DNA of 64,000 nucleotides from contig NC_090942.1 of NCBI RefSeq assembly GCF_040807025.1, positions 205,428,640-205,492,639 on the forward strand, written 5' to 3'. Below the pieces are notes generated by a model. It was not told where the DNA came from. It did no database searches and saw nothing but the letters and a program-made list of their open reading frames with translations. This document shows, piece after piece, positions 13,702 through 62,770 of this stretch (its first letter is position 1; every line of letters begins with the position of its first letter). The translations under genes were made by a program, and so were the position numbers. Source of the stretch: Struthio camelus. Lineage: Eukaryota > Chordata > Aves > Struthioniformes > Struthionidae.

Positions 13702-13735
<34 letters not shown>

Positions 13736-13984
13736 TGTCTGTCTGTCTGTCAGTGTCTCTGTGTCTGACAGTGTCAGTGTGTGTGCGTCTGTCAGTGTCT
13801 CCGTGCATGTCTCTTGTGTGTCTGTGACTGTGTCAGCGTGCCTCTGTGTTTGTGTGTGTGTGTGTGTGTGTGTCTGTGGGTGCACATGTGTGTTTGTCAG
13901 TGCAGTGTGTGTGCGTGTGGGTGGGTGGGTGGGTGGGTGCACGTGTGTCTGTCTGTCTGTCAGTGCTGTGTGTGTGTGTGTGTG

Positions 13985-14032
<48 letters not shown>
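13702..14032. repeat. Compound TG / TGTC / GGGT microsatellite
   Basis: This is a 330-base simple-sequence block. It opens with (TG)16 or so, passes through mixed TGTC/TCTG and TG runs with interruptions, contains a perfect (GGGT)5 at 13919-13938, and closes with twelve perfect TGTC units at 13985-14032. It ends only about 350 bases before the EXPH5 start codon and directly abuts the CpG island. Long open frames across it on both strands (Cys-Val and Thr-Asp-Arg-Gln repeats) are artefacts of the repeat. TG runs can adopt Z-DNA and (GGGT)n a G-quadruplex, which is known chemistry. Any role in EXPH5 expression is inference. Confidence 0.95.
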
Positions 14033-14035
<3 letters not shown>

Positions 14036-14378
14036 TCCCGCCGGTCCCTCTGGGCGGGCTGGCTCCTCGCTCGGGCAGAGCCAAACCAAACAGAGGCCAA
14101 GCGCCCGGCGCAAACACCTGACTCAAGGGCGGTCCCGCCTGCGCAGGGCGCCGGCACCGCCCGAGCTGCTGCTCCGGCAGCGGGGCGGCCCCCGCGCCCC
14201 GCCCGGCCCGCACCGCTCCGCTCCGCTCCGCTCCGTTCCGGGGCGGTGCCCCACGCGCGGCGGGGCGGCGGCGCGTGCTCCGCTCGCGGGCCTCGGCCAT
14301 GCTGAGGCCGCGCGCGGCTCCGAGGGGGCGCGCGCCGCCCCGCTCCCGCCGGCCGCCTGCGCGAGCCTCCACCACGCC
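14036..14378 (+). promoter_or_regulatory. EXPH5: CpG-island promoter and 5' leader of EXPH5
   Basis: The block between the microsatellite and the EXPH5 start codon is very GC-rich with dense CpG, and the island continues into intron 1 to about 14650. There is no TATA box at a sensible place. Seen elements include several GGGCGG/CCGCCC-type GC boxes, a ten-base palindrome CCTGCGCAGG at 14138-14147 resembling an NRF1 half-site pair, and a short CTCCG/CTCCGCTCCG run at 14215-14235. This pattern fits a TATA-less promoter with dispersed start sites. The transcription start cannot be placed from sequence, so the split between promoter and 5' UTR is unknown. Confidence 0.7.
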
Positions 14379-14382
14379 ATGA
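14299..14382 (+). CDS. Upstream ORF of EXPH5, 27 codons, overlapping main start
   Basis: This is the only ATG between the microsatellite and the EXPH5 start. It has a G at -3 (GCCATGC), so it could be used. It encodes 27 Arg/Pro/Ala-rich residues and stops at the TGA of 14380-14382, which overlaps the EXPH5 initiation codon as ATGA. If the mRNA starts upstream of 14299, ribosomes would have to skip it or reinitiate to make EXPH5. There is no domain, and the peptide is probably not functional itself. Whether it is transcribed is unknown. Confidence 0.4.
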   Translation: MLRPRAAPRGRAPPRSRRPPARASTTP

Positions 14383-14497
14383 GCGCCGCGCCTCGGGGGC
14401 CGGACCTCGGCTTCCTAAACGAGGAGGAAGCCAGGACGATTTTCCAGGTGCTGCAGAGGGACTCGGAGCTCCGGCGGGCGGAGGAGGACAGAGTCAG
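14379..14497 (+). CDS. EXPH5: EXPH5 coding exon 1 (residues 1-39 and part of 40)
   Basis: This exon encodes the start of exophilin-5 (Slac2-b), a Rab27 effector. The peptide contains FLNEEEARTIFQVLQRDSEL followed by RRAEEDRV, the amphipathic helix of the Slp-homology (Rab-binding) region; human EXPH5 has a closely similar opening. The ATG has G at -3, lies in the CpG island and is the only one giving this frame; the frame has no ATG further upstream. The exon ends CAG|GTACC at 14497 with two bases of codon 40 left over, which the next exon completes as Arg. The overlap with the upstream ORF at the start codon is the one odd feature. Confidence 0.93.
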
Positions 14498-14640
14498 GTA
14501 CCGGGCTGGATCCGCGCGGGGGTCCCGCGGCCGGGACGGTGCCCCCACGCGGGGCGGCGGCGGGAATCGCGGCCCGCGGAGGGCGGCGCGCGCGCCTGTG
14601 GGCGCCGGGGGGCGCGTGTCCCTGCCGGCGGCGCGGAGCT

Positions 14641-14810
14641 CCGGTGCCCTCCGGGGAGCCTCCGGGGGGCCCAAAAGTGCCCCGGGGGGCCCGAGGGCCG
14701 CTGGAGATCCCGAGAGCCTCCAGGGAGCCTGAGTGCCTCTGGTGGGCCGCAGAGCCTCGGGGGATCCCAGGTGCCTCGGGCAGCCCAAGAGCCGTATCCC
14801 AGGCCGGAGG
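14641..14810. repeat. Degenerate GC-rich minisatellite in start of intron 1
   Basis: Words of the form (G)AGCCTCCGGGG, GTGCC(C/T)C(G/T)GG and GGGGGGCCC recur at irregular spacing of roughly 25-35 bases, with the copies diverged. The block lies just inside EXPH5 intron 1 and is an extension of the CpG island. It encodes nothing recognisable. Confidence 0.45.
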
Positions 14811-20800: not shown

Positions 20801-22685
20801 TGCCACGTTTTTTCCTCGTTGCTACTTTCAAATAACAACATATTGTGATGGGGCCTGAAGTAAAGGATTGTGACTTTAAATGAGTTGAGAAAGGTTGGGA
20901 GGTTTACAATCTGCTGTGCAGTTGCAGGAGAAGCCCCAGAGAAGCATGCCATTTTTTATTTCAGTTTTAGCAGTGTAGACCTGGACTAACTAAACTTAAG
21001 CCCATTGTGTAACTCCAGTTTTACCTTATAGAGAGTGAGAGCAGAATGGGGACCAGCACCGCTGCCAATTCTTTGATTCTGTCTTTTCAGAATAATCTTC
21101 TTTAAGTGTTATAAAAGGTCAGTCTTTTGCTTGAAAGCTTTGTCTTTATTTGTGCTTGATAGTAGTGGAGTTCCTATAGCATATATGAAGCCAGGGTTCA
21201 GCCCAGGAAGGTCCTTGCTGAGGCCACTGGCTTTCTTCTCAACTACTTTCTTCACAGCCACCAGCTGTGCTCTGCCCAAGTTGGCCCTGAGCCCTGGCAG
21301 CCAAACCCCCAGGAGGAGGAAGGATGTGCTCAGGGCACTTTCACTCATGCTGATTCAAACGCAGGCGTTGTGCCAGTCTTCATACTGAAGTTTGTATTTA
21401 TAAGTGACAAAATGTTTTAAAAATGAAATTCATAATGATTATTATTTTTATTGCCTAGCCCACTTGCTGATTTCACTAGGGACCCACAAAGGAAGATATT
21501 TATTGAAACGGATGACGCTTAAGCCAAGGCTTATCTTGAAGCCTGTGGGTAGGTATTGTCTTAGTCCAAGCTAACAGAGAAAGAGGTATTAATTGGGCTT
21601 TGTCTTCATAGATAATTTGTCAAAGCTCCAAGAATAAGTTGCTGAGGTCAGTTATAACAGTACAAGCCAGCATTAACGGGTATTCTGTGTGCCCTTAATC
21701 TCGAATAAAAGAGATACTGTGTAGACAGTCCATAGGGAGAGTTTTTCTGGAACAGTTAATGCAGAATGCCTTATTTTGTTATTTTTTTCCGTGGAGCTGT
21801 GACCCCTTTAAGGGTTCGTGTACCTTGCAGGAAGTCTGTGTACTTCCCAGGTTTGAACTTAGTAGTTGTAATGTTTCTATGTCTCCAATACCTTCTGTCT
21901 CCTTCTCAGTTCAAATGCAGGAGTTAAAATAATAATTGACATTAGTGGGAATTGGAAACGCCCATCAGGTGGAGGACAGCAGCTACCTACTAAGCAGGCA
22001 AAGAGTCAGGACACGAAGGTAGGGCAGGGCCGTGAAGATAGCTATCTGAAATGCTGAAAACAACAGCAAAGCCTGGTCACTCTTGCTTTAGCTCAGCTTT
22101 CTTACATATGTCTTTTAAAGCTGCTTGAAGCTCCAGTGGCATTATGCAGTGGAGTCACTGGTACTCCAGAAGGCACTACTAGTGAAGGGCAGTGTGCTTT
22201 GCCTGTCACTACTTTGAAGAAGGATCTGTGTCAGTCTGCAATGAGCAGCCTTGGCAGGTCCTCCAAAATGTTTTCACGTACTGACAGCTTCTACAGACTC
22301 TGTCATGACCACTTCGGATCCTTGCACATATCTCACAAATATTAATTTGGGTACGTCAGGAACTCAAAAAAGCGTAGCACGGAAACACGTCCGATTCATA
22401 GTGGCTGGACATCACTCCTAGAATTGGCCCAGCTCCATTCAGGTTATACGTGCCTTGTAGTCCTGTCCGTGTCTGCAGCACATACTGAAATACACGCCTA
22501 AGCAAGGGTCATGGCGAGATTTCGCCTTCCCATTGTGAAGCCTGAGGTGCTGTAGTTTTGGTGCTTTTCATTCCTGAGGTACTTTAGATTAAATCTGTCT
22601 TAGGTCTATCTAGGTGTGCTGCACTTGCACCTCCTGTGAATGTGGCTCTTAGAGAAACCTGTCTGACGGCTGGGAACTGTTAGAC

Positions 22686-23108
22686 AGGGGGACTGGAGCA
22701 TCTCTCAGATGAGGAAAGGCTGAGAGAGCTGGGCCTGTTCAGCCTGGAGAAGAGAGGACTGAGGGGGGATCTGATCGATGTGTACAAGTATCTGAAGGGA
22801 GGGTGTCAAGAGGATGGGGCCAGACTCTTCTCTGTGGTGCCCAGCGACAGGGCAAGAGGCAACAGGCACCAACTGAAACACAGGCAGTTCCACCTGAACA
22901 GGAGGAGAAACTTCTGTGCTGTGAGGGTGACAGAGCAGTGGAACACATTGCCCAGAGAGGTAGTGGAGTCTCCTTCGCTGGAGATATTCAAAACCCACCT
23001 AGATGTGATCCTGGGCAATGTGCTCTAGAGGACCCTGCTTGAGCAGGGAGGTTGGACTAGATGATCTCCAGAGGTCCCTTCCAACCTCAACCATTCTGTG
23101 ATTCTGTG
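22686..23108 (+). repeat. CR1 LINE 3' fragment, sense orientation
   Basis: This is a clear avian CR1 3' end of about 420 bases. It starts in the terminal codons of ORF2 (AGGAAAGGCTGAGAGAGCTG, then GCCTGGAGAAGAGAGG), includes the conserved 3' UTR phrase GGTTGGACTAGATGATCTCC, and ends in two perfect copies of the octamer ATTCTGTG at 23093-23108. It is severely 5'-truncated, as is typical. It lies in the same orientation as EXPH5 within intron 1. Similarity to the expected consensus looks high, so it is among the younger copies here. Confidence 0.95.
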
Positions 23109-39117: not shown

Positions 39118-42100
39118 GTAAGTAGCTTACAAACTTTATTGTCATCTATGTTTAAAGCACAGAATTTTTGAAAACTGGACCCCTTTTTTAGGCTGTTGAT
39201 ATAATGTCTATTTAAATTGTATTCTTGTAGTTCTTATTTTAAATGCTGAATAAAACATCTGTGTTGTGAACCTGTGGGACTGAGTAGGGGGAACTTGCCC
39301 TATTAACTATATGCGTCTACGGGTAGCTCTGATCAGATTTCAATTCTCTCTTAATGATGAAATTACTGAATGGATAATTTCATAGGCCAAAATCATAACA
39401 TTTTGGCAATTGCAACCAACGTACAAACAGGTCAAAACTCACTTTGAAAAAATAATGTATTTACTTTTTTTTCTTCATTTATAAAAGGGTGAAAAAGAGC
39501 AGCAGACTTGGGCAGGTAGTAATCTAGAGCCTGCTCCTGCAGCAGTTCCATGCTCAAATTCCCCTGCAATGTAAAATTTAACAGTATCACACAATGGTTG
39601 AGGTTGAAAGGGACCTCTGGAGATCATCTAGTCCAACCGCTCTGCGCATGTACGGTCACCTAGAACATGTTGCACAGAATTTTATCCAGACAGCTTTTGA
39701 ATATCTCCAGGGAAGGAGACTCCACTACCTCTCTGGGCAACCTGTGCCGGTGCTCAGTCGCCCTCACAGCACAGAATTTTCTCCTCATGGTCAGGTGGAA
39801 CTGCCTGTGTTTCAGTTGGTGCCCGTTGCCTCTCGTCCTGTCACTGGGCACCACGGACAAGAGTCTGGCCCCATCCCCTTGACACCCTCCCTTCAGATAC
39901 TTACATGCATTGATGGAATCCCCCCTTGAGCCTTCTCTTCTCCAGGCTGAACAGCCCCAGCTCCCTCAGCCTTTCTTCAGAGGAGAGGGGCTCCAGTCCC
40001 CTCATCATCTTTGTAGCCCTCCGCTGGACTCTCTGCAGTAGTGCCATGTCTCTCTTGTACTGGGGAGCCCAGCACTGGACACAGTAGTCCAGGGGAGGCC
40101 TCCCCAGGGCTGAGGAGAGGGGCAGGATCCCCTCCCTCCACCTGCTGGCAACACTCTGCCTAATGCAGCCCAGGATCCCATTGGCCTTCTTGGCCACCAG
40201 GGCACACTGCTGGCTCATGTTTAACTTGTTGTCCACCAGCACTCCCAGGTCCTTCTCTGCAGAGCTGCTTGCCAGCAGGTCAACCCCCAGCCTGTCCTGG
40301 TGCCTGGGGTTATTCCTCCCGAGGGGCAGGACCCTGCCCTTGCCTTTGTTGAACTTCAGGAGGTTCCTCTCTGCCCACCTCTCCAGCCTCTCCAGCTCCC
40401 TCTGAAGGGCAGCACAGCCTTCTGGTGTGTCAGCCACTCCCCCCAGTTTAGTATCCTCAGCACACTTGCTGAGGGTGCACTCTGTGCCTTCCTCCAGGTC
40501 ACTGATGAATAAGGTTGAACAAGACTGGACCCCGGACTGCCCCCTGGGGGACACCGCTAGCTCCAGGCCTCCAAGTGGACTCTGTGCCACTGACCACAAC
40601 CCTCGGAGCTGTGCCCTCCAGCCAGTTCTGAATGCACCTCCCTGTCCGCTCGTCCAACCCTCACTTCCTGAGCTTGCCTAGGAGGATGTGATGGGAGAGA
40701 GTGTGAAAAGGCTTGCTGAAGTCCAGGGAGACAACATCCACTGCTCTGCCCTCATCTCCGCAGCCTGTCCTTCCAGCAGAGAAGGCTCTCAATCAGATTG
40801 GTCAAGGATGATTTCCGTTTGGTGAATCCATGCTGACTACTGCGGATCACCTTCTTGTCCTCCAGATGCGTAGTGAGGAGCTGCAGGAGGAGCTGTTCCA
40901 TGACCTTTGCAGGGGTGGAGGTGAGGCTGACAGGCCTGTAGTTCCCTGGCTCCTCCTTCTTGCCCTTTTGGAAGGCTGGGGTGACATTGGCTTTCTTCCA
41001 GTCCTCCGGCACCTCTCATGATCTCCGTGAATCTCCGTGACCTTTCAAAGATGATGGAGAGTGGCCCTTCCCCCTTCAGTAGCAGGCCCACGTTTTCCCT
41101 AGTGTTCCTTTTGTTGCTGGTGTATTTAAAGAAGCCCTTCTTGTTGTCCTTGACATCCCTTGCCAGATTAAACTCCAAATGGGCCTTGGGCAGTAGGAAA
41201 TTATTTTTTTGGCTGAATGTTCTGTATTATAAGTACCCACTTAATTCAAGCATAAAACAACACGTTTCTGATGTAATTCAAAGGTAGTCTCTTGAAAAAA
41301 CAAATTTCCTCCAAGGGTGATATATGTTATTTTCTTAATTACTTTATTGCCCTATATGGCTAGCAACGTCTTTTGTCCTCTTCTATTGTATGGTCTAAGC
41401 ACAGAGGGGACTAAGAAGGTGTACAGTATATAATCAGAGGTATAGAGAAGGTAAATTGGCCACCTTCCTTCTCTCATACTTCAAAAACAAAGGAATAATC
41501 TATATTAATGTATGACTGAGACAGGATCTGATCAGGATTCAGAGTCAGTTGGACTATTATATAAGTATTAAGAAAAACGAGAGCTAAAGTAGTCAGGGTT
41601 TGTTCTTAAAAAAGAGGGGAAAAGGTTCTGAGCTATCATAAATCAGCAGAGTTCAGCAGTTACCTGCATATCTACCATGTGAGAATGTGACCTAAGGGAA
41701 ATATGGATGGGATATGAACCTCTATATCTTAGCACATAAGCTAAACTCAGACTGATGGAGAATAGGAAGACATTTTCTCCACTGATAAGGTAATTTATTT
41801 CAGTCCTTCAAGGTGCTATCTTACTTCCCATCATGAAGCTGTCTTTTCAGTGTTTTTCAGGAGTCCCTAGGTTAGGACTTGGAGAAAATGGCCCAAATGG
41901 TCATTTGTGATACCAATCAGAAATTAGTAACCTTTTAAAATCAGTGGATACATGCAAACATAATTTTAATTTTTAATTTTTTGCTGCTTTACAAAAAAAA
42001 TTTATGTAATCAAACCAACGCTAATGAGCCTTAGCTGTAATACTTAAACAGTCTAATTGATTAGCTGTGAAAAGATAAAATGTTACAATCTGAAAATCAG

Positions 42101-42612: not shown

Positions 42613-44277
42613 GTAAGTCTGTGTACTTACTCTGTTCTGATAGTATCGTTACCAGCAGTGACTGTGGCATCTGGTGTCAGAGAGAATTTTCTGCAAAAGC
42701 ACAGACTGTAAAGATGTGGCTCATTACTTTCTAGTGCAGCGGCTACTTTTTTCTGACTTTGTCTGTCTACTGTGACCTTGAGTTTAAAAGGCTTTATGGC
42801 CTTTAGTTACCTTTGTGGGAGCCCCCATAGAGTCTAGTAGTACGTTGCTGGTTCATTTTTTCTTACTACTTGGAAGCAAGACAAGATCAGACTCAGATCA
42901 TGGGTGTACAGAGATGTTCTTCCATAACCTTTTACAGCTCTATGCAAAAGCCTGACCATGAACATTGCTTCCTACCACCCAAAATTACAACAAGAGATCA
43001 CAATTGGGATTGAAAGCTTGATCAGGAAGCAGTGGGAGAGTCAGCCGTGCTATAAGAGGAGAGCACTGCATGGTGAATTGTGGTTCCTCTGGAACGCATG
43101 TGCCCCTCGCTTTTGGGTGTCAGTCATAACTGTGCACACGCTTTCCTACTGACTTCATAGCTTGGCTGATGTTCTCAAAATGGAAGGCTCAGAAACAGCT
43201 GCTTTTTATCCTTACGCTAAACTGGCCCTCTCAGGAGTCCTCTCTCTTCTGTGCTGAAGAGAAACTCAGAAAAACAGAAACATCTAGTTTCTTTGAACCA
43301 CTTTTTATTCCAACTATATATGCCTAACAATGTTTTCTTAATGAACCTGTACAATTTACACATATCTGTACTGACTGATTAGTGAATCTTTTTTATTTGA
43401 GCTAGGAAGTGCTGTAACAAAATAGCCATATCCATTTGTGGTTTAATCTTACGTGTGCTTTCTTCAAAATACAGAAAGAATGCAATTAGTGAATGCATAA
43501 TTTTTTTTGCCAATAAAACACTTTAAACACATTACTGTTACGTAATCTTATGACTGAATATCTTGGTTAGCTGAGCTGTGAATGCTTAATTCTAGTTAAT
43601 CAGACTGGTCTATAAATACAGCCTTGTTGCAGGCATGAATCACAGGTTGCTAACTATTTCATTACCCTTTTTTTTTAATCAAGAAAATGCCCTTTTCGGT
43701 AGTTTAGAGTAAGTAAGAAGTTACAACTCAGGGAATAACTTATTTTCTGAATGAGGCAAGCAGTGGACATGCCAGACTACTGAATATGATTATTTGATGG
43801 TATGCAGAATTCTGTGCGGGCCCTACAGTTACATCATAACTGTGCTCTGTCTGTACTCTGGGAACATGCAGAAAAGTCCGTGTTTGCTTACGAGCATACT
43901 GAATTCTTTTCAGTGAATTTTTTGCTTACAAACTGGAATTTTGGAAAGTTTTTCCTCTACATTTAGTTGGTGAGTATAAATTCAGACTTCAATTGTTAGG
44001 TTCTTCTTTTAAATAGCAGGAGGCTAGCATTTACATAAAGAACAGTTTTAAGATCAGTCATGGAGCAGTGCATTTTTTCCCTTGTAGTCAAGACGGATGA
44101 CCGCTGAAAAGCCCTATGGATGAAGAATGTGGTTTGGGAAGGGTTATGAATGTTGAGAAGCTGACTCCTTTCACAACCAGTTGTAATTATTAATGTAGTA
44201 CATGAAACTTTTTAATATAAATAGGCAGAAGGTTATTAAAGAAAACCAAACTAAGTTTGTCTTCTTTTTCTGTGCAG
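42613..44277 (+). other. EXPH5: EXPH5 intron 5
   Basis: About 1.7 kb between donor GTAAGT and acceptor TTCTGTGCAG. The frame of the last exon happens to stay open for 25 codons into this intron, to an ATG at 44202, but the strong acceptor and the phase fit show these codons are intronic. I see no repeat of note. Confidence 0.85.
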
Positions 44278-47200
44278 TTCTAGATGATTTGGATGACCAG
44301 CTGGCCCAGGAACAAGCCCAAAATCCTTTGGACAAAACAATTTCTATTAACAGTGCAACAAATGTGCAATACAATAATGCATTTCCTACTTCAAAGAGGC
44401 AGACTACTCTTAGACGGCAACACAGAAAAGACTGGAGTGACATGCCTGGCACATCTTTCCCAGATGGACTGAGAACAGTAAGAGCCAAAGATGAACACAA
44501 GATTTTCATCAGACCAAGGAAATTACACAATGCTTATATAAACTGGCACCCGACAGCTTTTAAAGAAGATTACAAATACAGTGATCCAGTTGATGGAAAT
44601 CCTCATCTGCTAAGCAGCAGGCTGTCTTCTATTTCTTTCGGACAGTCTTCAGAAGGTAGCTTGTATCCTCCTTCCATAGCACAGAACAGTGGATTTAAGC
44701 ACAGGCGTTACCTGAACAGGGATACAGCTGGCAGAAGTTACTCTGTATGTTCCCTTCGGAGATGTCCATCCTCGGTATCTTCAGACCAGCTATCAGCATC
44801 TAGTTTACAGCATCCATTGGCAAGAGAGAGCAACAGCGGTTTTATACCAAGGTTTGGTCGCCAAAATCCAAAGAGAATTCCTCTATCTTCTATTGTATGG
44901 AACAATACACTAGACTCTCCCGCACAAACATCCACTCAAGAAAAAATGTTGAAAACGCAGTCACTAATGGAGTTTCATGCCACAGACCATGGTAGATACC
45001 CTAGCCCTTTGCAAGAAAATAGGAAATATGCTTGTTACCATTCAAAACACCATTACAGAAGATCTTTTTCAAGTAGTAATTGTTTCAGCAGAGTGAGTGG
45101 TTCTGACAAACCTGCATCTCCATTGTCCTTTGATAACTGGGAAAATTATCCGTTACATAAATCAGAAAATAATCTCTCTAGGTCCTGCTATAGAGATACT
45201 TCTTCTCATGGCAAGTTGTATACAAATCAAAAAAATTCTCCCTATGGGAAAAAAGATAGCTATCCTTCTTGGGCTGATATACCTCAGTACCATAGTGATA
45301 AAGTGTTTACTTCCCCTGATGCGAGCTTTGAAGGAGTTACGGCTAACTTAAATGACTGGCAATGGACACATACAATGAACGTCAAGTATGCTTCACAGCG
45401 CCTGCAGAATGATTTTCACATGTATTCTCCAGAACATACGAGCATCGAAAAGGTAGCAAGAAGTGTAAGTAATAGAACTTTTGCAGAATTCACCGAAGGC
45501 TATCAGCCTTGGCTAAGTCATAACTCTCCCGTTTCTTCATATGGCACCAGAAGTGATGAGCCAGTCTTTCCTGATTCAAAGGACCAAACAAAAGCTATAG
45601 GACTGAACAGCAATTCAGTCGTTGTTACTCAAAGAAGTACTAAGATGGACTTGGAGCAACTAGAAGATGTCGAAGATAAGAAACTGCCAGATGAAGTAGA
45701 TATTAAAGACATGACATTATTGTCAGTTTCTCAACAAGCAGATGCAAACTACACCAGCACACAGAGTTTACCTTCCAATAACCCTGCTTCTGCCATCCTG
45801 CCAAACAGTGTATCTCTCTTGAACTCACTGAGATCAAAAAGACAAACCCAAGGCACTGCCAGAAGAGAGACTGCAAAAATATATGCCTCACACAGTAATA
45901 AAAGAAACATGCAAATGAAGGAAAATGGTTGCCCACCCAAGAGTGTGTTCAGTCAGCCTCCCTGTATTTTGCCAGCTGATGAGAGCAGAAAGGAACGTTG
46001 TCTTGCAAGTCAGAAACCATGGGAACATAATCTACATTATGCAACAAAAAGAAAAAGCATCAAAGTGGATAATCAGAGTACAGGAACAGTTAACCAAGCT
46101 ACTCCAAAGAGACGGTCTTCACTGGTGGATGTTGGTTCTGCTCCATCGACTGAAAAATTAGTGAAGCATCAAGGCATGTTGCCCAGTCCTCCTGAACGTC
46201 CATCTAGTTCCTCACAAAGCTCTCCACAAGCACTTTCTCATAAAGACAATTTAAAGTGTTTAGAAACACTAGCTAACTCTTCAGTAAATTGCACAGTTAC
46301 TGAATCTCAAGCAGAAGGTGAAAAAACAGCTCAAAAGAGCAGAACAGATGTTACCAAAAAGATGTCACAGAAAACATCACAAAATCCTAGCACTTTAGTG
46401 AATAAGGACTGCAATAGACAGTTCACTACTAGTTCTCTAGAAAATGGAAGTTCTGGAAATATTTTTATATATAGCTTTGATGGGGACCTCCAGACCTCCA
46501 AGCATAGTTTAAATTATTTTTGCCTTGAAAAAGAAAGTGGAAAAATAAGGAATAATTCACCTTGTATTGAAAGGCTTAACAAGCAAGACAGCTTGATGCG
46601 ATATACCAGCAGCTGCAGCGTTACTGGCTCCCCTAGCAGAAACAACCCCAAATCTCCTGATCCGCTTGTTATCTATTATACCTTACCTAGAAAATCAGCT
46701 AGCATTGCTGGTAGTATCATGTCAGATACGCCTATCTCTCTCCCTAGAGAAAGCAGAACAAGCACATTTGATCGTTTAAGGACTGAAACTCCAAACAGAA
46801 CTGATGTATTTTGTTCTAATGAAAGCACGTCCTGTTTAGACTCAAAACGTTCCTTGTTAACATCAGCACCATTAAATGCTGCTACAAGTATCGAAGAAAA
46901 AGATTACCCCGTTCCTTTCACCAAAAGTCCTAATGACTCAGTAAGCAGTAGTACATCAGTCGAACTGGCGGAGAGTTCTAAACATCTGACCAGAAGAGGA
47001 TGGTCTGGTTTTTCAGAATGTAAGGAAAGGGGAAATTGTTTGCAGAAATATAAAACTACAAGCACATTTACAGTTTGTGTTGATGAAGATCATGTCAAAT
47101 ACCATGAACTAGTTTCAATCTATTACACATTGCCACGGAGGCATTCTAGAACGTTTTGTCACCTCTTTAGGGATAAGCCAGAGGATGCAGAATTACCTCT

Positions 47201-49646
47201 TCCCGAAGAAAATTCTCAGTCACCAAGAATATTTAACAAGAATAATGAAGGTCACATGAGTTTAGCAAATGTATTTTACCCTAATACTTTGGAAAAAGAG
47301 GTGCCTTCGTATTCTTCTGACCACGTACCTTCAGCTCTGGTCACACCTCGGAACTTAGAAACTGCTGTTGACCATAAAGAAGAGAATTCCCACTTACTTC
47401 CTAGCTCTGAGAAGGTATGTGCTTCAAAGGCAGTAAGTACAGTACATATTAGGAAAGATATTGCACCAGATCTTCCATTAGCAGAAAGTACACTTCCTGA
47501 CATGATGACAACAGGCATTTCTTTTGGTGGTCCACAATCCATTGCAATAGTGGGTGACACAGGTAAGGCCATTTCTGCTGCTTCAGGCAATCAAAATACA
47601 GAAACAGAAACACGTCTAAAAGAAAAGAAGGAAATTTTGCAAACAGCCACATCACTAACCTCCACTTTATCAAAGCCTCCCAAACCAGGCAGGCCTCTAG
47701 AGGATCTTTGTTATTGCACTTCAACAAATAAGAATAGTGTACAAAAGGGAAACTCTGAAAACTGCTATCAGCCTACTAAAGTAAAAACAAATGAAAATCA
47801 GAACAGTTTAGTGCTCCACCCAAGGGAGAAAAGTTATTTTGGTGGGAACAGTAATACAGAGCATTCTAATGCTCCAGTTCCTCCTGCTGAAGATAGATAT
47901 AGGGATAATATGAAAGTCAAGCAGAGAGAAAATCTCCTACACCAAATCACTCCTCTATATAATAATAAAAGTAGTGGACTGCAATTACGAACCGACAATT
48001 CAAGAAATAGCACAAATGATTTAATCTCTTGTAACAAAATGCTTTCAGAAGCCCAGAACAAAGCATTTGAGATAGGTACAGCTTCCAGTGCTGACCCGTT
48101 CCTTCAGCTAGACGAAATGGGTAGCACAGATACAAATGAGTTAAAGATTTCAAAAATTGAAAAAGTACAAAACTTGCAGAGTGCTGAGATTGGTAAAGAT
48201 TACACTGGTTTGCAGGAATTGGAGAGGCACAGTGAAGACAGCCTGAACGTTAACTGCAAAGTCCTTGGGGTTGCACAAGATCAAAAGTTAACACAGAATG
48301 CAGAAAGTGAGAGCAAGCTTCTCTCTGGCTGCACAAGAGACAAAGTAAAAGATATAGAAAAAAGGAAAAATAGACCTTCGATTAAAAATAAACTGGCAGC
48401 TGTTTACAAAACAAGTCGAAAATTTTCAAGTAAAAATTTACCCCCAAAGCCACACATCAGTAATATTTTTTCACAGAATGATGGAAGTGCCACTTCTCCA
48501 GAGGTTACGATGCCTCTTGACTCCTTGCTTTCAGCAGATTCCAATCCGTTGTTTCTGCAGTCTGCAAATGAAAACCAGAATCGTAGTCCGGACCCTGAAG
48601 GGAATACCCCGATACAAGGAACAGCTGAGAGAAATAAGAGTGAAAATGAAAATGATCTTTCTTTGCTTGTTAATAACACAAATTGGAGGTCTTTTACAAG
48701 TTCATACACACAGAAAGAAGCCATCAGTCCCCCAAAAAAGACAATAGAAGTGGAAAACAGGCCAAGTCTTACAACCCTATTTCCAGATAAAACAGTAGCC
48801 ACAAGAAATAAGAATTCTCAAACCCTTGGTCTTGGGTTAGAAAACAGAAGCCAGTCTCTCCCTCTTCGTGCTACTACATCAGCCCCACTGGATGACGAGA
48901 GAGGAAGAGCTAGGAGTAGTGCATGCAGTCCTCCCTTGCCACTTCTAACTGACAAAAACTCGAACCCCTTTATAAATAATTACTTGCAGGCAAACATATG
49001 TCCAGAGCAAAGGTTGACTTATCAGATGGCTTTTGGTCAGCATCAAAATACCTATCAGTCTAATAGCTTAAAAAATGCTAACTTGTATAGTAATCAGTTG
49101 CGCAAGAGTCATGCAAAAAATCAACGTGAGCGTCACCTTTCTGAGAGTACTTGTGCTCGAGATTCTCAGGACAGCTTTGCCTCTGGAAGCAATATTCTAC
49201 CTAAAGATAGTAGACATGGGAAGAGATTTAAATCTTACTCAGAGCTGTTGTCTTGTGACGAAAATGAAAACTGGGCATCTGACAGTGTAAAAAGTTACAG
49301 CACTAGGAATTTGATGTATCCTTCTGTTGAATTTGGTATATTCGGCAAAGAGCAACAATTGGCTTTCCTGGAAAACATCAAGAGGTCGCTCACGGAAGGG
49401 CGATTATGGAGGCCTTGCCTTCTTAGTAACCCTGGCGCTCTCAGAGATGGAGAGAGCCCTTTAAGCAGATCTGAGCTTTTGAGCTCTAGTTCTGCTGGGA
49501 GCAAAATATCATCGGCTGCTTCATCGCCCAGAGAGCTGACTGAAATGTATCAGGGAGAGCCAGCAACTTATTCAGACTCGGACACTGATACTACCACAGA
49601 TGATGAATATTACCTAGATGAGATAGATAAAGAATCAGAACTATGA
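44278..49646 (+). CDS. EXPH5: EXPH5 coding exon 6, giant last exon (residues 200-1988)
   Basis: This 5369-base exon encodes 90% of exophilin-5. The protein binds Rab27 through its N-terminal domain and promotes docking or release of vesicles at the plasma membrane; in humans, loss of EXPH5 causes a skin-fragility disorder. The total length worked out here, 1988 residues, matches the roughly 1990 of human EXPH5. The region looks mostly disordered, rich in Ser, Asn, Lys and Thr, with no catalytic fold. Visible landmarks are VLDDLDDQLAQEQ at the exon start and two copies of IYYTLPR(K/R) at residues 998-1005 and 1147-1154. Near the end are a block around FLENIKRSLTEGRLWRPCLL (from residue 1896) and a very acidic tail (SDSDTDTTTDDEYYLDEIDK). 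The frame has no interruption. The stop TGA is at 49644-49646. Long antisense frames here are shadows. Confidence 0.97.
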
Positions 49647-54700: not shown

Positions 54701-56029
54701 GCCAGGGATGAACTGGCTGGCCAATAAGCAAATGTGTAGCTACAAATTAAGAGCATACGTGTTTTCTCTTGCCCACTGGGAGCAGCGTATATGGTATGTC
54801 GGTGATTATATGAGATGAGGGAGTTTAGGAAACTAAAGACAAAAGCAAAGAGGAAACCGGACTTGATAGTTCTGCTTTCGAGGAACCTGTTTTTCATGGT
54901 CTGTATGCTTGGAGACTTGAAGTTCATGTTGATCATAAACATGCAGCATTCATTCATGCTCTCACTTGTTTTTGTTTTTCATATGCGAAAAATCGAGGCT
55001 TGCATGGAAGCTTAGATTTAAATCTCTTACAGTCTTGCAAGCTCCCGCCTCTACTGGCACCCTGAATATTTCATAGTAGACAAGCAGCAAAGATGCTCCT
55101 GATAAAAACGATGTAACAACCTTAGGAGACAAATCTCTTGATTCTGGGTATGTGCCCGAGCCACATCTGGACTTCGCACTGGGGAAAGACTTGTGAGCAC
55201 GCTGCCTCGTCACACCATCCGCGGCCGGGAAGGTGAGCTCAGGGGCAGGCACCAACTTGCCAGTACGTCCCAACAGCTTCCCCAGTGTGTCCCTCAGTTT
55301 AAATGCAGCCAGTATGGCAAATCCTAGCAATGGCAAGGAGGACTTTTCAATTATATTTTTATTTATTCTGTAGCAATCTTTGCCTGTACGTCAACTGATA
55401 CAGGCCATAACAATTAACCAGCTTTAGAGAAATAAGATTTATTGCTCTTTGAATTCAGTGATACCAGCTGCTCAGCTGAAGATTGAATCGTGTCATAAAA
55501 TACAGGCAACGTTGTATGGGGGAGACAGAGAGATCATTGTCTCGTCAGCTTGGCCTGCAGGGTACCCGTGGACAAAGAGAAGGAAAAACCTCTTGAGACA
55601 TTAAAACACTAGATTCAGAACAGCTTGTGTGTAGACAAACGGGTCTGAAGCGCATCGTTCACTCTGACACCAGCGTCTTCCCTGACTCTGAAAATGCACA
55701 GATACAGAAACGTGAACTGCACTTGGTGCCAAGAGGCTGCTGCATCTTCCTCTCGCCCAGTAACGAACACCTGCCAGTTCGGGCAGGCTGAAAACTAAGA
55801 AATGGGGTTGTTTTTTTTTTTTTTTTGGCAGCACCGGCAAAGCGCTGCCGTGCGGGTAGAGGGCAGCGGGCTCGCGTGTGCCTGCCTTGGGGACGGGGAA
55901 ACCGTGAGCCACTCGCTTACGCCTGGCAAAGCGGCTGACCTGACCGTGGCAGAGCGGGCGATTTAACACCTCTGGCCGCTCTCCGCTGGGATGTGACGTG
56001 CGCAGCTTTTGCAAGGGAAAGCGCTGCCT
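54701..56029. other. Intergenic spacer upstream of POGLUT3
   Basis: Unique-looking sequence rising in GC content toward the island. It contains a T18-20 run near 55808-55827. A TGACGTG word at 55994-56000, of the CRE/ATF6 half-site type, could matter for an ER-protein gene, but a single 7-mer is weak evidence. No gene is seen. Confidence 0.5.
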
Positions 56030-56377
56030 CCCTGCACGCTTTCGGTTTCAACACGGCCACAAAACTTTCAGGCCAGAAGAGCGCGGCCCTCCGCGGCCCT
56101 CCCAGCGGCCGGGCCGAGGCGCGTAGCGGGCGGGGGCAGCGCCGCACCCGCCGGGGCCGGGGCCGGGGCCGGGGCCGGGGCCGGGGCCGGGGCCGGGGCC
56201 GGGGCCGGGGCCGGGGCGGGCAGCGGGGCGGCCGGATGCGGGGCGGGGAGAGGGGGCGGCCGCCCCGCGGGGAGCGGGCGCGGGGCCCGCCCGGCCGCGC
56301 AGGCCCGGAGCAGGCCCCGGCCCCGGCCCGCTGCCCTGCGCTGCGCTGCGCTGCACCGCGCCGCTGCCGCCCGGGCC
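56030..56377 (+). promoter_or_regulatory. POGLUT3: CpG-island promoter and 5' leader of POGLUT3
   Basis: Extremely GC-rich, CpG-dense sequence running from about 56030 through exon 1 to about 56720. There is no TATA box. GC boxes (GGGGCGGG, GGGGCGGGG) lie at 56213-56250, directly after the hexanucleotide tract. A CTGCG run (about 56335-56355) precedes the start codon. The pattern fits a TATA-less housekeeping-type promoter. The transcription start cannot be placed, so it is not known whether the GGGGCC tract is transcribed. Confidence 0.7.
56153..56212. repeat. Perfect (GGGGCC)10 hexanucleotide tract
   Basis: Ten uninterrupted GGGGCC units cover exactly 60 bases, ending 165 bases before the POGLUT3 ATG and flanked by GC boxes. 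The same unit expands in human C9orf72 disease and is known to form G-quadruplexes. The frame matching POGLUT3 reads it as Gly-Ala repeats; the other frames give Gly-Arg and Gly-Pro types. Assemblies often misjudge the length of such tracts. Confidence 0.98.
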
Positions 56378-56597
56378 ATGCGGGGCGGCCTCCGCGGGCG
56401 GCTGCGGCTGGGGGCCGCTTTGCCGCCGCTGCTGCTGCTGCCGCTGCTGCTGCGGGCGGCGGCGGGGGCGGCCGTGAGCGCCGAGCGGAGCCTGGCGTGG
56501 GGCCCCGGGCTGGAAGCCGAGGTCGCCCTGCCCGTGCGCTACTTCTACATCCAGGCGGTCAGCGCGGCCGGCCTCAACTTCTCCCGCTCCCCGCCAG
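56236..56597 (+). other. Out-of-frame upstream ORF overlapping the POGLUT3 start (exon 1 part)
   Basis: An ATG at 56236-56238 lies 142 bases before the POGLUT3 ATG in a different frame. Its context is weak (C at -3, C at +4). The frame stays open through all of exon 1 and would, after splicing, stop at TAA 62586-62588, for about 125 codons. It reads the signal-peptide Leu codons as a run of 11 alanines. It may be noncoding in practice, or may lower POGLUT3 translation if the mRNA starts upstream of it. Confidence 0.35.
56378..56597 (+). CDS. POGLUT3: POGLUT3 coding exon 1 (residues 1-73 and part of 74)
   Basis: This is the start of protein O-glucosyltransferase 3 (KDELC2), an ER-lumen enzyme that transfers glucose from UDP-glucose to serines of EGF repeats, for example in Notch and fibrillins. 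The exon encodes a signal peptide with a long Leu core (LPPLLLLPLLL, residues 15-25), cleaved probably after the Ala-rich stretch near residues 29-34. It then opens the filamin-type (immunoglobulin-like) domain with SLAWGPGLEAEVALPVRYFY (residues 38-57) and an NFS glycosylation sequon at 67-69. Human KDELC2 has a closely similar WGPGL...LPVRYFY stretch. The ATG has G at -3 and is the only in-frame ATG. The donor is CCAG|GTACC. Confidence 0.93.
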
Positions 56598-59500
56598 GTA
56601 CCGTGCGCTGCGCGGCGCTGCCGCCCCCGCCCGCCCGCCCCGCCGGCAGCCCTCGGGGGCCCGGCCGAGCCCCTGGACGGTCTGCGCCCGGCAGACTCTC
56701 CCCTCCTGCCAGCGAGCTGCTTAAAATCCCTGCACTGTACCCTTGCAGCCTCTCAGCCCTGCTCCGATCCAGCAGACTGAGTCTCACCTCTTGCTTACTC
56801 AGCACGAACGTCTTATGACACTTGCCTTGAGGGTGGGAATTTGCTTCTGCTCTTGCGGTCCGGCAGCATGTAGCCGGTCCGTTGTTTTGTCCTTGCAAGT
56901 CAATTCCTCGCCTTTGTTGCATGCTGATAGTTACACTTCAGCAAAGATACTTTTGAATACTGTCTTCATAATGAGGATAACTAGGAGGTAACGGCCCAAC
57001 AAAAATTCGGTATTGCCGATTTATATAGGGGAAACCTAGTTACTTTGCTCTGTATCACTTATTTACCATTCATATTCATGGGACTGAGTGGATATCTACC
57101 ATGTATACCTGGCCTTTTTGTCTACTGTAGCAATTCCTGCTCTTGGAAATAATTTCAGAAGGTTGCTGCGTGTGAAACTAAAGAATAGACCAAATGTCTG
57201 AAAATGCCCAGTGTTTACTCTAAGTTTTCTCATATACTGTGTTTGGCCTAACATATATTAGAAGGGTTATGCCTTTGCTCTGACAACATCTGAGATGCTT
57301 CTGCCTGGACTTTCTCCATCAGCTGTTGCAACTTTGTGCTGGATTGCAGAGTTTTCCTGTAACTGTGTTAAAGAACGCAACTGCACTGAGCCGGTGAATC
57401 TGAGCCTAATTCCAGCCACACCAAGGGAGATCCTTGGGTTCAAACAACAGGCTGCTGAGCTAAAAAGGTGTGAAGCTCAATTAGGTTCTCATGCTAGTTT
57501 AAATCCTCCTAGATAAACTGATAGAAAATGTATATTAAGAATCCGGTTTTGATCTCAAAGCGTATTAGTCAATTTGGGAATGTTTTCTGGTCCTGATGCC
57601 ATGTGGTATGGAACGGCCTGCATTCATACTGTGAAATTCTGTTTGCCTCCAAAGCAAGGTGGTGCGTGCGTATCACCTCTTGGGAATAGTTGTTGGGCCG
57701 CGCTAACTCTTGAGCCATGCCAAGAATTCTTTAGGAGACTGCCAAGGATCGTTCAACAATTTAGCAGAACAGTTGATCATGTTCCAGGGCACAGTGCACT
57801 AGCACTGTATAATTTATTGGTGTAGACATAGGCTATAAATTTCAGTTCTTGAATGATTTTACATTTTCAAATTCTATTTGTAAAACGTCAGTAAGAATTA
57901 TAATTAATAATATTCACCAGCGCACTGCTTTCCAATGTGAACTAAATATATCTCAAAATATCCCCATTGAGATAGGCAGCTAAATAAATCCACATTATCA
58001 TTTCCATTTCACAAATAAGAAAACTGCAATCAGAATGAGTGAGAGCTGTAGTTAAGGCTTCCCATTTGTAAAATTTGTGTTTATCTATTAAACAGTTTTT
58101 TTTTCCTGTGGATTAGAATTTTAATGAAGTAGGCCAGCACTAACTGGTATCCAGTATGATACTTGTGTACGCTATGTAGCAGATTTTAAATTCAGAAAAT
58201 CTTCTGATTATCAGGTCTAATCCCTAGAATTAATGTGCCCCGTTGCCTGCCACAAAATAATTTCATCCTACAGCCTGTAGGTCTTTAGCACATCTTTTTA
58301 GGAAGATATCAAAAGATGCAGAATTCACTTGTTTGCTGGATAAATTATTCCAATGATTAAAAAACTACTATTGAAAATAGAGGGCTTACTGTAGTATAAA
58401 AAGTACACATTCTTCATTGGATCCCTGGATCCCCTTGTCCTTCTTCTCTGCTAGGTTTTCCACTAGGCTTACAGTAAATGTTGAATCTCACTTTTTTTTT
58501 TTTCCTTTCTTCCTGCTATCAGTGGACTTCGCTTTTTTCCTAGTGGGCTTTGTTACCATGCCACTGACCCCTTATCAAATGCTTACTGTATCTAAGCTGC
58601 CACCAACTAAAAACAACAAATCCTTTTGGAGCAGATCTGTGCCCTTTCATGTCTCTTGGCCAGTACAGCAGGGAACAAAGACCCCTATAGTTGGTTCCTG
58701 TTCTTGAGGACCATGAGGTGGAATCCAGTAGTTTTTGACTTGTGATTTCTCAGTCTTCACTCACTTTTATCCTTGTTCATCTGATAACTGGAAACTTTGT
58801 TTTCTCTGGTAGGAAATCTTCATACCCAGTTAAAATGTTTCATAAAAGGGAGAAGAAAGGAGACAAAGACATAATAGCAACAGAAAACTATTTTCTCTAT
58901 GATGCTGCTTCATGGTATGCTCCGGATTTCAAGGTTTCTTCCGAATAATGCTATCCAACGCTTCATCCAAATCTGCTACAGAGAGGCTACTTGGTTGAAG
59001 TCAGCTCCTTTTAAGCAAGCTAAAAAAAGGTGGTTGTGACTGATAGTAATGTCTGGAGGCACAGATGACAATTCTTCCATTAAAGTCATGTGTGGCGTCA
59101 GCAGCTGAATTCAAAGGGAGGGGACTCTTGCATTAAGACCTCTGGCAGAGTTTAGTTGAATGAGGAATGGAAATTGTCATTTACCTGAGGAGAAATGTGT
59201 CTTCCCACCTGTTTGGACTACAGCTCCTCACTGTCACCTCGAGCAGAAGACCGTTCATGAGGAAAACCAGGTACTGTTCTCCCAACTCCCTGGGGTTTTC
59301 CTCTCAAGTCATTCTAAAAACGGACCACCACCTCACCAAAGGGAGTGTTTGTGCTGACACGAGATTCAGAGACGTCAGAGTCTTCCAAAGGAGGTAGAGT
59401 GAAGAGCAGATACTTTGACCATAAAAATAGGGATCACACAAGAGGAAGTGAATAAATTGATCTTGACTGTCTCAGACCTGCTGTACATTGTCGTTCTCTT

Positions 59501-62572: not shown

Positions 62573-62770
62573 GAAGAACACAGTTTAAAGTGGTAATTAA
62601 AGCACTTTCTCCAAAAGAAATCAGCAGAATTTATGCCCCTAACCCTTTGGATAGGAACGATGGCACATTTCTTATGCGCTATCGGATGTATGGGAGTGTC
62701 CGAAAAGGGTTAAAAATTGAGATACTTTATGGTGATAAGCATGTAGCTCGGTCTCCTTATATTTTGAAAG
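62573..62770 (+). CDS. POGLUT3: POGLUT3 coding exon 2 (residues 74-139), gene continues
   Basis: This exon encodes the rest of the filamin-type repeat: FKVVIKALSPKEISRIYAP, the highly conserved PLDRNDGTFLMRYRMY (residues 98-113), and GLKIEILYGDKHVARSPYIL (residues 119-138). The domain precedes the CAP10/GT90 glucosyltransferase domain, which must lie beyond the right edge of the window with the C-terminal KDEL-like retention signal. The acceptor is CTCTTTTCAG|GA and the donor GAAAG|GTAAGG. The exon is 198 bases and keeps phase 1. Only 139 of roughly 500 residues are in the window. POGLUT2 shares the architecture; the neighbouring EXPH5 favours POGLUT3. Confidence 0.95.

Follow-up and report, generated by a model that had tools for sequence, protein, structure and literature searches.

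What a run of GGGGCC units, the hexanucleotide known from human C9orf72, is doing in front of a different gene in the ostrich is the question raised by this locus. Within the window (the whole 64-kb stretch of DNA that was analysed), such a run lies in a CpG island just upstream of a POGLUT2/3-type gene, and it has to be asked whether the resemblance to C9orf72 extends beyond the repeated unit.

A perfect hexanucleotide tract

Ten units, (GGGGCC)10, were reported at 56153-56212 in a preliminary description, and direct reading of the sequence agrees with this letter for letter. The perfect run extends slightly further on both sides:

56150-56217, + strand: perfect period-6 run, 68 nt, 11.3 units

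With a TRF score of 136, 100% matches and well over six perfect head-to-tail units, this run is a hexanucleotide microsatellite. It contains 11 CpGs, every one of them inside a CCGG site, and no other perfect tandem run of any unit of 1-12 nt in the 64-kb window is as long, the runner-up being a TGTC run of 49 nt. None of 100 shuffled windows contained the 12-mer GGGGCCGGGGCC, which matches the real window 10 times: nine times within the tract, in overlapping matches, and once at 56313 on the opposite strand. Markov models of order 1-4, trained on the CpG island minus the tract, put the log10 probability of 11.3 units at about -25.6 to -30.3. Because this length is far beyond what composition yields in either the shuffles or the Markov models, a duplication process such as slippage is required to explain the run.

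The assembly length of the run is 11.3 units only. GC-rich avian sequence is hard to assemble, and an artefact of assembly or sequencing, giving a wrong unit count or a spurious tract, therefore has to be considered. However, common read lengths exceed 68 nt and the flank 3' of the tract runs on into a sensible gene, so that such an artefact is very unlikely.

The downstream gene and its neighbourhood

The bases 56213-56377 separate the ten units from an ATG at 56378, which is the distance of 165 bases that had been described. This ATG opens the first of two exons, whose splice sites were placed by eye:

56378-56597, + strand: coding exon 1 of the POGLUT2/3-type gene, with a GT donor at 56598
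62573-62770, + strand: exon 2 of this gene, flanked by AG and GT

The exon 1 product has a hydrophobic, signal-peptide-like start followed by the beginning of a filamin-like domain. Its 73 residues from 56378 match POGLUT2 (PDB chain 9w47_A, E 2.2e-10), while Pfam Filamin reaches only E 0.14, below the cut-off, with exon 1 alone. When exons 1 and 2 are joined, the match to 9w47_A improves to E 4.2e-28 and Filamin to E 5.3e-10, giving a POGLUT2/3-type N-terminus with a filamin-like domain that spans the two exons. The PDB matches of the joined exons are POGLUT2 and a chain named BK158_1. From its predicted protein, the gene 3' of the tract is thus of POGLUT2/3 type. The preliminary description had called it POGLUT3; the family is supported by these matches, and the choice of POGLUT3 over POGLUT2, which we take to be the likely one, draws on sequence likeness and synteny. 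The upstream neighbour is presumably EXPH5, to which we assign the following frame as its large exon:

44199-49646, + strand: single open frame, 1815 aa

Neither this EXPH5-like frame nor the probable first exon of the EXPH5-like gene had a Pfam match up to E 1, and no Rfam family at gathering score and no tRNA was found within the window.

CpG island, GC boxes and the start of transcription

The tract was also said to lie in a CpG island and to be followed by GC boxes, and both statements hold. With 200-nt windows, GC of at least 0.55 and an observed/expected CpG ratio of at least 0.65, two islands of at least 400 nt are found in the window, at 55701-56800 and 14001-14750. Seven GC boxes (GGGCGG/CCGCCC) start between tract and ATG, the first at 56214:

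55701-56800, unstranded: CpG island around the tract and exon 1, GC 0.74, CpG observed/expected 0.88
56214-56292: cluster of six GC boxes directly 3' of the tract, at 56214, 56226, 56241 and 56254 on the + strand and at 56260 and 56287 on the - strand
56367 (start): seventh GC box between tract and ATG
56236-56238, + strand: upstream ATG, out of frame with the ATG of the gene and in weak context (C at -3, C at +4)

Of the 29 GC boxes of the window, 16 start within 56128-56635 and another 11 lie at the 14-kb island. A TATA-type site and a YYANWYY initiator were not found at 56000-56378, nor was CCAAT at 55700-56378.

The usual place of Sp1-type sites is some tens of bases 5' of the transcription start. 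This usual spacing, taken with the cluster at 56214-56292, suggests a start 3' of the tract. The upstream ATG gives mild support to such a downstream start, because its frame, if unspliced, reaches 56724, beyond the end of coding exon 1, and a main transcript beginning 5' of 56236 would carry this overlapping upstream open reading frame. The GC boxes fix the start only loosely, since others lie upstream of the tract and beyond the ATG, and the tract may be transcribed in part or in full. The preliminary wording, promoter or leader, can be kept for the promoter, given the CpG island and its GC boxes, whereas the GC boxes and the out-of-frame ATG suggest from their positions that a leader role is less apt.

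G-quadruplex motifs and RNA folding

A search for runs of at least three G with loops of 1-7 nt, which reports the pattern only, returned motifs on both strands of the island, and a short complement of the tract lies between the tract and the ATG:

56153-56228, + (coding) strand: G-quadruplex-type motif comprising the tract and the first GC boxes
56315-56336, - strand: quadruplex-type motif
56624-56641, - strand: quadruplex-type motif
56313-56329, + strand: 17-nt complement of the tract, with 2.8 GGCCCC-type units

In ViennaRNA, the tract alone is predicted to fold at -91.6 kcal/mol with quadruplexes and at -47.5 kcal/mol without them. For the 231-nt RNA from tract to ATG, the fold without quadruplexes (-177.8 kcal/mol) contains 17 consecutive pairs between 56196-56212 and 56313-56329. 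These pairs, the position of the tract only 165 nt 5' of the ATG and the out-of-frame, overlapping upstream reading frame from 56236 would fit a transcribed tract that forms a structured 5' leader lowering POGLUT3 translation. Eye-catching as the 17-nt complement is, the fold is no better than that of dinucleotide shuffles: in folds that contain no quadruplexes, 160 of 200 shuffles were at least as good for the whole RNA (z 0.91), as were 162 of 200 for the part 3' of the tract (z 0.87). Composition therefore accounts for the stability of the hairpin. Moreover, when quadruplexes are allowed, the model favours those of the tract over the long hairpin (-220.2 versus -177.8 kcal/mol). A structured leader is thus a rather improbable explanation of the tract.

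Origin and age of the tract

Seeds from which such a run could grow are expected by chance. In simulated 700-nt islands, at least two tandem GGGGCC units on either strand occurred in 152 of 5000 and at least three in 2 of 5000, under a model whose training sequence includes the 56313-56329 element. By this model, a chance seed of two or more units would not be rare in such an island. An identical (GGGGCC)10 was also found in a prokaryote collection, with 27 matches in 24 DNA stretches, 18 of which we take to be actinobacterial from the names in their titles. These GC-rich genomes belong to other domains of life and offer another context, so that they serve as a control for independent origin only; given the 24 stretches, an independent origin of (GGGGCC)10 is unremarkable.

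The purity of the tract had been read as a sign of recent expansion or active length change. Avian neutral rates are 1.2-3e-9 per site per year, from which the half-life of a pure 68-nt tract is 3.4-8.5 Myr, with CpG hypermutability and slippage ignored. This reading is not sustained, because with such a half-life purity alone does not show current length change; it is compatible with an age of millions of years and with present-day length change alike.

Reading frames through the tract and the comparison with C9orf72

Human C9orf72 is the obvious reference. Its wild-type alleles carry three to 30 units; for one transcript variant the repeat falls within the core promoter, for the others within intron 1 (PMC5822839). 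The ostrich tract shares with it the GGGGCC unit, a G-rich strand that is the coding strand, a quadruplex motif, a promoter-adjacent position and a nearby CpG island, and its ten units fall inside the normal human range (PMC5822839). Unlike the human repeat in intron 1, it lies 5' of the start codon, in a promoter or possible leader, and the gene downstream is of POGLUT2/3 type on the evidence of the 9w47_A and Filamin matches.

Poly-Gly-Ala translation from C9orf72 needs a CUG in good context 24 nt 5' of the repeat (PMC5764992). In the ostrich, the Gly-Ala, Gly-Pro and Gly-Arg frames are all stop-free through the tract. The Gly-Ala frame, in which the gene itself is read, is open from 55997 (after a stop at 55994) through exon 1, but a near-cognate CUG 24 nt 5' of the repeat is absent from it: the nearest CTG is at 56024, 129 nt 5' of the tract, with G at -3 and C at +4. 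Other near-cognate codons listed in this frame are AGG at 56117, ACG at 56036 and TTG at 56009. A stop at 56124 closes the Gly-Pro frame 29 nt 5' of the tract, and no listed near-cognate codon lies between the two. In the Gly-Arg frame the first stop met on going upstream is at 55936, and this frame does contain CTG codons, at 56032 and 55972.

It could be proposed on the grounds of the shared unit and orientation, the unit number and the three stop-free frames that the tract behaves as in C9orf72, being translated without an ATG into dipeptide repeats, or expanding in some individuals so that methylation silences the gene. The lack of a nearby CUG in the Gly-Ala frame and the stop in the Gly-Pro frame, with no listed near-cognate codon after it, speak against this, as do a length in the normal range and the chance that the tract is not transcribed, and behaviour of this kind is highly improbable. 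The preliminary label of a C9orf72-type tract is apt for unit, strand and quadruplex motif and does not extend to the translation set-up. The likeness most likely stops short of disease-like behaviour.

A coding explanation of the tract was considered and rejected. Open stretches of more than 110 codons cross the tract in every one of the six frames, and of 5000 simulated frames 60% stayed open over the 318 non-tract bases 5' of the ATG. Open frames being expected at this locus, the openness of the Gly-Ala frame is no evidence of coding. Since the unit is six bases long, stop-free and in frame with the ATG, each GGGGCC would add one Gly-Ala pair with the frame kept. A near-cognate start further 5' could then give POGLUT3 a length-variable poly-Gly-Ala N-terminal extension, which is extremely unlikely. 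If true, the extended POGLUT3 would be a natural, tolerated dipeptide-repeat protein, with the signal peptide masked in a fraction of the product.

A probable promoter microsatellite among avian promoter repeats

Promoter repeats of other birds provide a closer comparison. About 10% of the genes of chicken, duck and zebra finch have a repeat of 2-6 nt with at least six perfect units at most 2 kb 5' of the transcription start site; tetra- to hexanucleotide repeats in avian promoters have more units than dinucleotide repeats, and potential G-quadruplexes accumulate in chicken core promoters (PMC4203960). The ostrich tract resembles these repeats in being perfect, with at least six units of 2-6 nt, 5' of a gene, G-rich and in a CpG island. 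It differs from them in its unit, for GGGGCC/CCCCGG is missing from the 20 motifs of Table 1 of that source, and within the scope of that table it is therefore not a common unit in avian promoters. In the literature collection searched, no paper combines GGGGCC with POGLUT3. Among the matches listed, none for KDELC2 with GGGGCC or G4C2 concerned KDELC2, and none for GGGGCC with bird, chicken or avian dealt with the ostrich locus, as judged by title and start of abstract. Passages of PMC6206671 and PMC12935551 added nothing on the GGGGCC unit.

The position of the tract at the GC-box cluster, the coding-strand quadruplex motif at 56153-56228, the 11 CpGs and the unit-rich repeats and quadruplexes of avian promoters (PMC4203960) would also suit a selected cis-regulatory element, one whose tandem G-rich sites and quadruplexes would hold the promoter of POGLUT3 in an open, unmethylated state and whose length would tune expression. 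However, a CpG-island promoter needs no such tract, as illustrated by the island at 14001-14750 with its 11 GC boxes and no tandem GGGGCC, and a selected element is unlikely.

Altogether, the tract is probably a GGGGCC microsatellite that arose by slippage in the proximal POGLUT3 promoter, just 5' of the GC-box cluster, with transcription starting mostly 3' of it. Its unit catches the eye, but elements of this kind are known, and the tract is most likely an ordinary short repeat of a GC-rich promoter. Chance seeds of two to three GGGGCC units in the GC-rich island would have grown by replication slippage. Most POGLUT3 transcripts would start 3' of the tract, in or after the GC-box cluster, so that the tract would be mainly promoter DNA. 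In the open promoter, the G-rich coding strand could form G-quadruplexes, and tract length could alter the spacing to upstream elements; through quadruplexes and spacing, length changes are proposed to affect POGLUT3 transcription modestly at most. At a length of 11.3 units, no dipeptide-repeat product would be expected. If the tract proves length-variable in birds, it would provide a natural GGGGCC tract outside C9orf72 in which island methylation and the stability of the repeat can be compared. For now it is a single promoter microsatellite whose value depends on population data.

Other elements in the window

Two open frames, at 39901-40677 (- strand) and 22684-23028 (+ strand), look retroelement-like and presumably resemble part of CR1-type retroelements; neither had a Pfam match up to E 1. 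The 14-kb CpG island, which we assume to hold the probable first exon of EXPH5, contains a (CCGCT)6.6 repeat at 14208-14240, so that a short GC-rich repeat is present in each of the window's two islands. At its upstream edge, 13702-14033 consists of about 330 nt of imperfect TG/TGTC/TGTG repeats, the best perfect run within which is (TGTC)12 at 13985-14033.
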